A DNA stretch of 64,000 bases from Deltaproteobacteria bacterium PRO3 (GTDB lineage: Bacteria; UBA10199; DSSB01), in assembly GCA_030263375.1 (NCBI GenBank), contig SZOV01000004.1, forward strand, positions 1 through 64,000, written 5' to 3'. The translations under genes were made by a program, and so were the position numbers. Under the pieces are notes generated by a model, which had not been told where the DNA came from, ran no database searches, and worked only from the letters and a program-made list of their open reading frames with translations. This document shows, piece after piece, positions 21,934 through 26,162 of this stretch. The stretch's first letter is position 1; each line of letters starts with the position of its first letter.

Positions 21934-21977
21934 AGGCCCTCCTTTTATTCGAACGGGGACAAGGATAAGCCTTTTTC

Positions 21978-22033
21978 CGGATCTTGAAAAACAAAAGGAT
22001 GAGGGCCGCGGGACCGGGATCAGCCGGCCGGCT
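21978..22033. repeat. left copy of a 56-base direct repeat (partner at 24933-24988)
   Basis: 54 of 56 bases match 24933-24988 in the same orientation, with weaker similarity on both sides (about 21966-22062). The right copy spans the stop codon and 3' flank of the endonuclease-family gene, so this left copy is a decayed fragment of that gene's end. The two copies bracket 2.9 kb. Confidence 0.85.
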
Positions 22034-22081
22034 TAAAGGGCGGAAGGGGGGCGTGGTCGCTGCGGGGAGCGCGGTAGTCCC

Positions 22082-22110
22082 TTGACGGGAGAAACCGACT
22101 TGTCTACGAT
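22082..22110 (+). promoter_or_regulatory. predicted sigma-70 promoter of the Cys-rich secreted protein gene
   Basis: TTGACG (22082-22087), a 17-base spacer, TACGAT (22105-22110). The leader to the ATG at 22133 is about 16 bases and includes GGAGA. Confidence 0.6.
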
Positions 22111-22132
22111 TTATGGAGATTTAGGGACGCTT

Positions 22133-22579
22133 ATGAAAGGACTTCCCTGGAAGCTTGCGCTTGTCGCCTGCCTGGGCTTGCTCGACATTCAAAATCCGGC
22201 AATGGCCACGTCGCGCTCGCAATATTTCGACAATTGCTCGGCTGGGAAAAACTGCGACGAAAAGCTCAGCTGTTGCCGGGAGGCATGCGGCTCGTATTCC
22301 GAAACGAATACCTCGGATGGAAAAAGGAGCTGCACCTGCACCTTCAATAATCCGGATGCCTCCCTCGAATCCTGCAAGCCGGCGACCAAGGCGGTCGATT
22401 TCACCGTTCAGCCCGACCTTCAGGGCGTCGAGCCCGTCAACCCCCGCGAATTCCGGACACATCCGGGCACGTTCCAGCAGCTCGAGCCGGTGAATGAACC
22501 CAACCTGCCGGGGGAAGGGACCTCCACACCTGGGCGTTTTCAGGTCCCTCGATGGTTGGATGGCCTCGAGGCGGATTAA
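22133..22579 (+). CDS. secreted Cys-rich protein of unknown function
   Basis: 148 residues from the ATG at 22133, where a signal peptide begins (MKGLPWKLALVACLGLL, cleavage after AMA). An upstream in-frame ATG lies inside the promoter and was rejected. Seven cysteines fall in the next 55 residues (NC, NC, SCCREAC, CTC, SC), implying a disulfide-knotted domain. The remaining 70 residues are Pro/Glu/Asn-rich and probably extended. I recognise no family. It lies inside the 2.9-kb segment between direct repeats and is convergent with the transglycosylase fusion. Confidence 0.75.
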   Translation: MKGLPWKLALVACLGLLDIQNPAMATSRSQYFDNCSAGKNCDEKLSCCREACGSYSETNTSDGKRSCTCTFNNPDASLESCKPATKAVDFTVQPDLQGVEPVNPREFRTHPGTFQQLEPVNEPNLPGEGTSTPGRFQVPRWLDGLEAD

Positions 22580-22585
22580 CCGGCG

Positions 22586-23992
22586 CTAATGTCCCTCCGC
22601 CGCGTTAGCCGTCCATCGCCAATGCCAGGGCTCGAAGGCCATGCCTAAAGCATTGTTCAATGGATAAGAGAGGCGAAAACCCGCCAGGGGCGCGTTCCGC
22701 TCCAGCCAGCGGAAGGCCTCGGTTTGTTCCAACGGAATATCCGTGTCGCCCAAGACGCCGAAATCTATCGCGGGAAAATCCACGCAGGAGTGCTCGCTTT
22801 CCTCGGGAAGGGCGACCCTTTGGAATGTCCGACTCAGGCAGTAAGCATCCTGTCGCAGAAAGGCGAGCATGAGGTAGTGCTGGTAGCCGGCCGCGCGGTA
22901 TGCGGAGGTGACGATCAGCGGGATTCCATCGGCATGAGCCCGGGCGAACAAGGAATGAAGGGACGCGTAAGCGGGTTGCGGGATCCAGTAGGTTCGGTTG
23001 CCATATTCGTTCGAGGCCTGCCCGAGCGGAATGAGTCTCGCTTGGGCGGGGTCGGCGGGACGTTCGCAGGCGAGTAAGGGCAGGGGGCGGCGTTCTCGTT
23101 TCTTCTGCAGCAAGCTTCGAATAAAGGCGATTTCCTCCGTCTCAAGCGATTCCCACAGCCGTTCCTCGGTGAGCAAAAAAGCCCGCCCCGAGAGGATGTC
23201 GTTGGCGAAGGTGCTGAAAACCTTGGCGACGATGTAGTCCGTCCGTTCGGATTCCTCTATGGTCAAGCGGTCGTCACAAGCCTCCGCGGTTTTTTCCCGG
23301 CGAATGGGAGGAAGATAGGATTGAAGGAGGAGATCGAAAATGCGGCTGCCCGCCTCGGTGAAACGTTCGTGGAAATTCTCTTCATCGGCGCGTTCGGGGT
23401 TCGGGAGGATCGAGGCCAAATACGAGGCTTCCAGGGGCCCCAGTTCTTCAGGCAGCTTGCCGAAGTAGTGTCGGGAAGCCGCTGTGACCCCGAACAGGGA
23501 AGGGCCCCATTGGGCGACGTTGAGGTAAATCTCCAGAATCCGGTTTTTCGTCAGGCTTCGTTCCAGCTTCAGGGCGAGAATCACCTCGCGAAGTTTGCGT
23601 GACAGGGTCTTTTCAGGGCCTAGATACAAATTCTTGGCGAGCTGCTGGGTGATCGTGCTGCCGCCCCAGACGATTTTTCCCTGCTTGAGATTGATCCAGA
23701 ACGCTGCCCGAAGGCTTTTCCAATCAAGACCTGGATGAAAATAAAATCGGAAGTCCTCCGCCACCACGACGGCTTGCGGAATAAACGGCGACATCCTCGC
23801 AAGAGGCGTCCAGGCGATGGAGCACTCCGCTTCACATTTCCTCTTGATGAAACTAGTCGTCTTCGGATTGGCGTTTTGGAGGGGGCTCGGATCCGGAGCG
23901 CGAAACCAGAACCAGGCGAAGCCGATCGAGAGAAGGATCGCTGGAGCTAAGGCCAGAGCGGTGAAAGCCAGGAACCGGCGTCTTCGGCGCAC
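22586..23992 (-). CDS. GT51 peptidoglycan glycosyltransferase fused to M15 (VanY-like) D,D-carboxypeptidase
   Basis: 468 residues, GTG start. A basic N-terminus and one TM helix (about 9-30) anchor a GT51 domain: catalytic Glu79 in AEDFRFYFHPGLD, then WGGSTITQQLAKNLYLG, and the second Glu (E154) in KNRILEIYLN. After about 100 linker residues comes an M15/LAS-type peptidase with VTSAYRAAGYQ, SEHSCVDFPAIDF (His401 and Asp410 as likely zinc ligands, with a loop two residues longer than the usual SxHxxGxAxD) and EPWHWR (His457). The first domain polymerises lipid II; the second should trim D-Ala. Monofunctional GT51 enzymes are normally about 240 residues, so this fusion is unusual. It lies inside the repeat-bracketed insert. 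Confidence 0.85.
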   Translation of the reverse strand: MRRRRRFLAFTALALAPAILLSIGFAWFWFRAPDPSPLQNANPKTTSFIKRKCEAECSIAWTPLARMSPFIPQAVVVAEDFRFYFHPGLDWKSLRAAFWINLKQGKIVWGGSTITQQLAKNLYLGPEKTLSRKLREVILALKLERSLTKNRILEIYLNVAQWGPSLFGVTAASRHYFGKLPEELGPLEASYLASILPNPERADEENFHERFTEAGSRIFDLLLQSYLPPIRREKTAEACDDRLTIEESERTDYIVAKVFSTFANDILSGRAFLLTEERLWESLETEEIAFIRSLLQKKRERRPLPLLACERPADPAQARLIPLGQASNEYGNRTYWIPQPAYASLHSLFARAHADGIPLIVTSAYRAAGYQHYLMLAFLRQDAYCLSRTFQRVALPEESEHSCVDFPAIDFGVLGDTDIPLEQTEAFRWLERNAPLAGFRLSYPLNNALGMAFEPWHWRWTANAAEGH

Positions 23993-24040
23993 CGGGCTAG
24001 TTTAAACCATCCATCGGGGAAACGCCACCGGTCCGGGGAA

Positions 24041-24694
24041 TTAGCCGGGACGCGCGACCTTGATTTGGGTCTTATGGAGGCGGTTCGCCCAGTCGCGATA
24101 GTATACGGTAAATACGTTCTTCTTGGCCGGCAGCCGGAACTTTAAAAGACCGACGTGGGAGTGAGTTCCCGTTCGAGGGATCATGACGTCGATGTAGTTG
24201 TACGGCCTGGTATTGGGATTGGAGGCGTAACACTCCTCGCTCGAAATCCCCTGAATACCCGCGCGAGGAATCTTACAGTAGTTTATGGGAAGCGAACCGA
24301 CGCCCGCGGCAAAGGGCGAGCCGGCCAAATTTCCCAGCAGTTCGGACTCGTTCGAAAGCGGAGCAAAGGCATAGGGATCGTTGGCCTCCCCCGCGAACTG
24401 CGAGAAGGAAATCGGATCGGCGAATCGGTAGTTCGTCGGCACCCGCAGGAAAGCCGATGCTACATAGGAGGCGCTCCAGCGGATTTGCGCGTAATTAAAG
24501 CTGAGGCTGTAATTCAGAGAAACCGCTCCCGGAGGAAGCGCGGAGTCGGAGGGCCGGTGCCCGGACCCCTGATGGGGAGAAACGATTTCCGGCGACAGGT
24601 CCGAGGTATCCATTTGCTCCGCAGAATCGACGTTACCGCAGGCTGCGAGAGACATTGAAAAAAGAACTAAGAAAATTGGATTGGATTTTTTCAC
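24041..24694 (-). CDS. lipoprotein of unknown function
   Basis: 217 residues from the GTG at 24694, which follows a GGGGGG ribosome site; two in-frame starts upstream lie in the promoter. The lipoprotein signal ends in SMSLAACGN, with Cys as the lipidated residue. The mature chain is Ser/Asn/Tyr-rich and includes a GTHSHVGLLKF segment and a C-terminal domain that could be an immunoglobulin-like fold (KFRLPAKKNVFTVYYRDW). A cysteine pair (YCKIPRAG, EECYAS) may be oxidised. No family is recognised. It lies inside the 2.9-kb insert, has lower G+C than the flanking core genes, and is preceded by a sigma-54-type promoter. Confidence 0.75.
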   Translation of the reverse strand: MKKSNPIFLVLFSMSLAACGNVDSAEQMDTSDLSPEIVSPHQGSGHRPSDSALPPGAVSLNYSLSFNYAQIRWSASYVASAFLRVPTNYRFADPISFSQFAGEANDPYAFAPLSNESELLGNLAGSPFAAGVGSLPINYCKIPRAGIQGISSEECYASNPNTRPYNYIDVMIPRTGTHSHVGLLKFRLPAKKNVFTVYYRDWANRLHKTQIKVARPG

Positions 24695-24725
24695 CGAGCC
24701 CCCCTGTTCTACGACCGCATACATA

Positions 24726-24742
24726 AGCAAGCCCGAGGCCAA
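24726..24742 (-). promoter_or_regulatory. sigma-54 promoter upstream of the lipoprotein gene
   Basis: Minus strand TTGGCCTCGGGCTTGCT, with GG and GC separated by exactly 10 bases, the -24/-12 spacing. The predicted start lies about 22 bases before the GTG at 24694. Confidence 0.6.
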
Positions 24743-24932
24743 AACTTTTCCCAAGGGGAGCCGAGGAGGGTGTTTTTATAAGACACCGATATTACCGGCG
24801 ATTTTAGCGGAGTCTCTTGGAGTCCATTGAGGGGCATGCAAGGCGATTGGGGGGTGAGCCCCTCGGAAAGGGGCGGGCTGAGGGAATTTGATACCCTGCT
24901 TCTCAAAAGGGGAAAGAAAAAGCCGTTTATTT

Positions 24933-24988
24933 CGGATCTTGAAAAACAAAAGGATGAGGGCCGCGGGATCGGGATCAGCCGGCCAGCT
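24933..24988. repeat. right copy of the 56-base direct repeat (partner at 21978-22033)
   Basis: This copy covers the last codons and the 3' flank of the endonuclease/exonuclease/phosphatase-family gene (stop at 24975-24977, minus strand). The repeat period is 2955 bases. See the left copy for identity. Confidence 0.85.
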
Positions 24989-26162
24989 CGAAGCGCAGGA
25001 CGGCGGGGTGGTGGTCGCTGGGCCTCGCCCCGGCGGGGTAATCGACCCCGGGCTGCAGCGCGATCACCCGCCTCTCGAGGCTGCGCAGGCCCCGCGCTGC
25101 GAACCAATCCAGCTTCAGGCTGATCTTTCCACCGCCCTTTTGGATCTGCCGGTTGATCCATCGGACGATCCATTCGGGGAATTGGTCCCGGGCCATGTGG
25201 CCCAGGTCGCGGTCGTCGGAGACCAGGTCGTAGGTGCCGGCGCCGGGCTCGTTGCAAGCGCGGAAATCGAAGCCGCGTCCCTCGAGCATGCGGAAGAGGG
25301 GGCGGTCAAACTTATGCTCGGGTCCCGGGTAATGCCTGCGAATCATCGCTTGGGGTCCCGTCACCAAGACCTGCCGGAGCACGCTTAGCAAAACCGCCGG
25401 GCCGTGCGTGGTGTCGAGGGTGTTGGTGTTCCAGTCGCCGGCGACCAGGGCGCGAGGCCGTTCGTCGAGGGCCGAGATCGCCCTTCCCAGCTGCGCGGCC
25501 CGGGCCCGCGGCGAGGAGAAGGCGTCCAGGTGCGTGCAGGCCAGCGTCAAGGTCTCGCCGCCGAGCTTGAGGTCGGCCAGTAGGGCGCGTTTCTCGCCGA
25601 GCCGCGCCTCCTTGGACTTGAGCTTGTCGATGGCGTTGTCCATGCGGACCACGCGGAGGTTCTCGAGGCGGTAGCGCGAGAGGATGGCCTTGCCGTGAAG
25701 CCCCAGGGCGTTCCGGCCCTCCTGGTGGCGCTCGGAGCCGTGGCCGAGGGTGAAGTTGAAGTAAGACGGAGCAAAGTAGGCGTGAAGGCCGAGGGCCTCG
25801 GCCAGCTCGGCCGCGACGTTGCGGTTCTCGGAGCGCGCCATCCCCCAATCCACCTCGGTGAGGAAATAGAAATCGGCGTCGTTGAGGCGCGGGTCCTCGC
25901 TCAGGCTGTGCCGTAGGGCCGCGAGCTGCTTGCCGCGCTCGATGTTCCAGGTGACGGCCTTCCAAGTCCGCGGCGCTTCGGGCCCGGCCGGCGGGGAGGC
26001 CGGGACATGCACCTCGAAGCCGCGGTGCAGGCCTTCGGCGACGGCGCGGGCGAGCTCGCGCAGCCGAGGGTCCTTTTGTAGCCGGACATGGACCGGGACC
26101 GGGCTCGGGTCGCGGGCCAGGTAGTCGGAGGTCTCGGCGCAGGCTTGCAGGAAGGGGTCCAT
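24975..26162 (-). CDS. endonuclease/exonuclease/phosphatase-family hydrolase
   Basis: 395 residues. An N-terminal stretch of about 70 residues is followed by an EEP fold: TWNIERG, a metal-binding Glu in LTEVDWGMA, HLDAFSS, GDWNTN and a terminal SDHHPA. These are the metal and catalytic residues of DNase I/sphingomyelinase/inositol-phosphatase-like enzymes. The substrate is not evident; there is no signal peptide, so a cytoplasmic hydrolase is likely. The start lies at the edge of a strongly AT-rich 108-base stretch. The 3' end has been partly copied to 21978-22062. Confidence 0.85.
   Translation of the reverse strand: MDPFLQACAETSDYLARDPSPVPVHVRLQKDPRLRELARAVAEGLHRGFEVHVPASPPAGPEAPRTWKAVTWNIERGKQLAALRHSLSEDPRLNDADFYFLTEVDWGMARSENRNVAAELAEALGLHAYFAPSYFNFTLGHGSERHQEGRNALGLHGKAILSRYRLENLRVVRMDNAIDKLKSKEARLGEKRALLADLKLGGETLTLACTHLDAFSSPRARAAQLGRAISALDERPRALVAGDWNTNTLDTTHGPAVLLSVLRQVLVTGPQAMIRRHYPGPEHKFDRPLFRMLEGRGFDFRACNEPGAGTYDLVSDDRDLGHMARDQFPEWIVRWINRQIQKGGGKISLKLDWFAARGLRSLERRVIALQPGVDYPAGARPSDHHPAVLRFELAG

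Follow-up and report, generated by a model that had tools for sequence, protein, structure and literature searches.

A single-chain fusion of a predicted GT51 glycan polymerase and an M15 VanY-type carboxypeptidase in a small group of uncultured bacteria

A GT51 peptidoglycan glycosyltransferase and an M15 VanY-type carboxypeptidase are encoded by one gene in a 64,000-nucleotide stretch of contig SZOV01000004.1 of Deltaproteobacteria bacterium PRO3 (the window). Its domain content and structure model make it reasonably probable that the product is a two-enzyme peptidoglycan synthase, held at the inner membrane and facing the periplasm, which polymerises glycan and trims the pentapeptides on the nascent strand. 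To our knowledge, GT51 synthases occur either alone or with a cross-linking domain. A literature search that covered mostly journals other than subscription titles returned no description of a GT51-VanY protein and no paper with both Pfam accessions, PF00912 and PF02557. The pairing on one chain is therefore apparently an undescribed combination of two well-known families, and the fusion is confined, as far as found here, to one small group of uncultured bacteria.

The gene is a single uninterrupted reading frame in the ORF translation, and its features are given in Table 1. The N-terminal half matches Transgly PF00912 (E 2.7e-51, 174 bits against a gathering cut-off of 27), and E79 and E136 align without gaps to the GT domain of A. 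aeolicus PBP1A at the established positions of the GT51 catalytic glutamates. Both glutamates had been called in the original prediction, which was made from the sequence alone. The C-terminal half matches VanY PF02557 (E 1.1e-17, 64.5 bits against a gathering cut-off of 25), with His401, Asp410 and His457 of the zinc site exactly where they had been placed, and with Arg366 of the SxYR motif and Glu454 of the ExxH motif completing the site. The penicillin-binding transpeptidase PF00905 is absent from the protein in a Pfam scan, so the distinction drawn earlier from bifunctional penicillin-binding proteins (PBPs) holds, the second domain being a zinc carboxypeptidase. Both domains are expected to be periplasmic by way of the N-terminal anchor. 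The same genome has two other GT51 genes, one of PBP1A type and one monofunctional (238 aa), and no second VanY at an E-value cut-off of 0.001.

Table 1. Features of the fusion gene and its surroundings in the window.
Feature	Position	Strand	Remarks
Left direct repeat	21972..22067		degenerate copy of nuclease gene 3' end
Inserted segment with lipoprotein and fusion genes	22068..24926		2.9 kb, 57.5% G+C; empty site in G001, G004
Fused gene, GT51 peptidoglycan glycosyltransferase and M15 VanY carboxypeptidase	22586..23992	-	468 aa, GTG start
M15 VanY domain, residues 339-462	22607..22978	-	PF02557, PDB matches, fold
EPWH motif	22622..22633	-	E454 presumed catalytic base, H457 third zinc ligand; invariant in all relatives
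Zinc loop H401-x8-D410, SEHSCVDFPAIDFG	22763..22792	-	two residues above usual length
Helical lead-in, residues 245-301	23090..23260	-	homologous to N-terminal part of stand-alone VanY relatives; helices in model
GT51 domain, residues 59-218	23339..23818	-	PF00912, alignment, fold
N-terminal membrane anchor, residues 9-31	23900..23968	-	basic N-terminus then hydrophobic stretch; helix 2-31 in model
Upstream putative lipoprotein gene	24041..24694	-	GTG start at 24694, lipobox SLAAC, 48 bp before fusion gene
Right direct repeat	24927..25022		intact nuclease gene 3' end and downstream flank

Both folds are recovered in an AlphaFold2 model built from an 80-row alignment (pLDDT 93.2, pTM 0.85), which supersedes an earlier model from only four sequences (pLDDT 57). 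In this alignment the N-termini of the stand-alone VanY proteins are partly misaligned over GT51 columns, so caution applies to how the two domains are oriented in this model. By Foldseek against the PDB, the GT51 fold matches 3nb6 (TM 0.82 by target length), and the VanY fold matches VanXYc 4oak (TM 0.66) and VanY_B 5hnm (TM 0.62). No PDB entry with both domains is among the Foldseek matches listed.

The original prediction had named two ways in which it might fail, a C-terminal domain that matches no M15 profile and a sequencing error that joins two genes. The C-terminal half does match M15 profiles, and full-length fused orthologues with both PF00912 and PF02557 are present in three other assemblies of the class, at 76% identity in G001, which belongs to the genus of the window genome, and at 52% and 40% in G008 and G038, from two other families. 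These records are separate metagenome assemblies, labelled Deltaproteobacteria. All five VanY residues and both GT51 glutamates are invariant across the four fused proteins, and the same holds for four cysteines in the C-terminal unit (C239, C309, C385 and C403). A joining error is thus ruled out by four assemblies, and the fusion is real, given full-length orthologues elsewhere in the class that keep the catalytic residues. Between the window and G001, dN/dS is about 0.1 for the whole gene and about 0.08 for the GT51 domain; the VanY part gave no distance, presumably through saturation of its synonymous sites. The fusion gene is shown by these sequence comparisons to be under purifying selection.

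The fused C-terminal unit is present in four of the 46 genomes of the class. When the genomes of 84,980 species were scanned with the C-terminal profile, three fused loci were among the best 80; that scan relied on two short peptide patterns, so divergent fusions could escape it. Long VanY frames were also checked in 385 genomes, mainly from other classes; none of the frames from outside the class contained GT51, which rules out independent fusions among those genomes. A phage origin was rejected because IMG/VR scans gave VanY matches only, with GT51 absent, and a plasmid origin because no plasmid record covers 80% of the C-terminal unit.

Stand-alone VanY proteins from Omnitrophota, Planctomycetota and candidate-phylum bacteria match the C-terminal unit over their whole length, starting near residue 245 of the fusion. 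Its profile matches L042, L043 and L052 from profile position 11, such that the helical lead-in is part of the homology. The zinc loop of the fusion has the spacing His-x8-Asp in place of the canonical His-x6-Asp, and this is a subfamily trait, since the PF02557 match is still well over its cut-off. In the alignment, His-x8-Asp is found in 11 stand-alone members and His-x10-Asp in one, with His-x6-Asp in the remaining VanY rows. The two extra residues noted earlier are therefore real, but they are not the fusion's own novelty, because a stand-alone subfamily already carries them (L042-L050, L052 and L056, several with a signal-peptide-like start). The VanY tree places the long-loop proteins together (100/98), with the four fused proteins as a clade among them (99/90); the data neither demand nor reject a clade made up strictly of His-x8-Asp proteins (p-AU 0.43). 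The fusion took over a long-loop VanY unit whole from the stand-alone subfamily. The stand-alone members share with it the loop and the N-terminal helical region, but have no GT51 in the protein or in the flanking DNA examined.

The GT51 tree unites the fused proteins with GT-only relatives from G032 and G009 and a truncated-VanY relative from G012 in one clade (98/93). The G012 relative, L009 (G012:C49, 1465-2448, +), retains the VanY lead-in, has lost the catalytic part and has no lipoprotein neighbour. The simplest reading of these trees would be one fusion event, after which G032 and G009 lost VanY and G012 kept a truncated unit, and the GT51-VanY fusion appears to be single in origin. Given two GT51 relatives without VanY and a third with a truncated, non-catalytic unit, the carboxypeptidase is dispensable to the module. 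Loss or truncation in three of the seven members of the GT51 subclade is what might be expected if one half alone were catalytic and the other served in substrate binding or location. That reading is very unlikely, as neither half varies at any of its known catalytic residues among proteins at 40-76% identity.

All four fused loci, and the two GT-only loci of G032 and G009 as well, have a putative lipoprotein gene immediately upstream in the same orientation. The order lipoprotein-GT51(-VanY) is therefore kept in six genomes (the window genome, G001, G008, G038, G032 and G009), and a profile of the lipoprotein family gives strong matches in exactly those six of the 46. In the GT-only loci and in G038, the two genes are a few bases apart or overlap. 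A TIG domain is found in two family members, and no other known relatives were seen. A search of Pfam and PDB gave no sequence match that would make the lipoprotein a homologue of a known PBP activator. Beyond the lipoprotein-GT51 pair, the neighbouring genes vary among the three other fused loci.

The pair in the window is an insertion. It sits between a methyltransferase gene and a nuclease gene that adjoin each other in G001 and G004, and it is bracketed by direct repeats with 83% identity over 96 nt. The earlier description of a lower-G+C, repeat-bracketed insert is correct: the G+C content of the window as a whole is 63.2%, related genomes show the empty site, and the left repeat reproduces the nuclease gene's 3' end in degenerate form. 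The same site in G002 holds an unrelated 786-aa frame. The methyltransferase-nuclease interval (window 21934-24974; L144 1488-3933; L145; L146) is a variable insertion site. A small, cysteine-rich and probably secreted protein without a Pfam match is encoded at 22082-22579 (+), convergent with the fusion gene; in G001 another cysteine-rich gene (L039 8724-9758), different from this one but also convergent, occupies the equivalent position.

VanY is an accessory in glycopeptide resistance, where it depletes precursors ending in D-Ala-D-Ala (PMC12419801). With this precedent and with the operon on an insert in a variable site, the fusion might be part of a laterally moved cassette that strips D-Ala-D-Ala from precursors as protection against glycopeptide-type inhibitors, the polymerase holding the carboxypeptidase at the site of synthesis. 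We regard this as improbable, however, because no van genes adjoin the fusion, two close operons are without any VanY, and the hosts appear to bear an outer membrane, which would already keep glycopeptides out. The fusion also falls far short of the VanY glycopeptide-resistance models, with 18.6 bits of the 425 required for NF000472 and 20.7 bits of the 400 required for NF000473.

The specificity of the C-terminal domain is less certain than its family. The name D,D-carboxypeptidase given earlier stands as to the M15 VanY type; D,D activity is likely rather than proven, since VanY_B, VanXYc and the L,D-enzyme LdcB match at similar strength. An LdcB-like L,D-carboxypeptidase would convert tetrapeptides to tripeptides, on strands already trimmed by other enzymes, and LdcB structures do match the VanY domain both by sequence (4mph, E 1.5e-10) and by fold (4ox3 and 4mph). 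VanY_B nevertheless outranks LdcB in the fold search. Among the M15 models, vanXY gives the highest score for L007 and L008 and for two out of three stand-alone relatives, although all the models are weak for the window protein, the LdcB model NF041194 among the low scores (17.8 bits against a cut-off of 275). In addition, nascent strands carry pentapeptides, so an enzyme linked to a polymerase would meet the D,D-substrate first. The L,D reading is for these reasons an unlikely one, and D,D is favoured.

With D,D-trimming, the GT51 domain would polymerise lipid II into glycan, and the zinc carboxypeptidase would remove the terminal D-Ala from the pentapeptides of the very strand being made. 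This would yield a tetrapeptide-bearing glycan, no donor for penicillin-binding transpeptidases but a donor for L,D-transpeptidases (YkuD), and the co-encoded lipoprotein may anchor or regulate the enzyme. The glycosyltransferase step is the most secure of these predictions; D,D-trimming of the strand as it is made is likely, and a supply of donors to L,D-transpeptidases is plausible as a proposal. There are three YkuD proteins in the window genome, and YkuD is present in all four fused genomes; it is widespread in the class (39 of 46), so its presence is not specific to the fusion. S13 D,D-peptidases are found in 40 of the 46 genomes, the window genome included, whereas no genome of the 46 has an S11 D,D-carboxypeptidase over the cut-off, and G008 is the only fused genome with neither. 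The fusion is therefore not a stand-in for absent D,D-carboxypeptidases, nor does it meet a general need, given that most genomes of the class lack it.

Parts of this arrangement are familiar from known systems. MtgA, a monofunctional GT51 (TIGR02070), has the same anchor and GT51 domain and is the best-scoring NCBIfam GT51 model for the fusion, but the score of 171.5 bits is below the equivalog cut-off of 182.65, and the fusion has an additional unit of 240 residues. Class A PBPs (PBP1A/1B) likewise have a domain that acts on peptides after an anchored GT51 in the same chain, although that domain is a penicillin-binding transpeptidase there and a zinc carboxypeptidase here. The VanY and VanXY D,D-carboxypeptidases (M15B, PF02557) have in common with the fusion the fold and the catalytic set SxYR, SxH...D and ExxH, and differ from it by the GT51 partner and the His-x8-Asp loop. 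L162 (G245:C3, 466-2220, +), from a genome of 0.6 Mb, is a 585-residue frame that seems to join a MurD-type ligase to an M15-type peptidase domain, which would be a further case of a cell-wall synthesis enzyme with a carboxypeptidase-like partner.

The closest functional likeness is to the repair machinery of E. coli, in which PBP1B/LpoB polymerises glycan, PBP6a trims pentapeptides and LdtD makes 3-3 links from the tetrapeptides (PMC6428754). Polymerisation followed by trimming of penta- to tetrapeptides would be common to both, with these two steps placed on one chain in the fusion, and a lipoprotein activator takes part in the E. coli system. In contrast to the fusion, the E. coli enzymes are separate polypeptides and PBP6a is a serine enzyme; no lipoprotein of solved structure is recognisably similar in sequence to the fusion's neighbour. 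A broader and doubtful extension is that the operon is a dedicated, laterally moved module for peptidoglycan synthesis, in which a polymerase-carboxypeptidase on a single chain, regulated by an outer-membrane lipoprotein of its own, would make tetrapeptide-only glycan for L,D (3-3) cross-linking, as a one-protein counterpart of the E. coli machinery.

If the assignment of a two-enzyme synthase is true, the GT51-carboxypeptidase would make strands unfit as donors for penicillin-binding proteins. Polymerisation would then be tied directly to the L,D cross-linking route, and only alternative cross-linking enzymes could join such a wall. The order of polymerisation and trimming, and the trimming of nascent strands itself, could be addressed with one purified protein.
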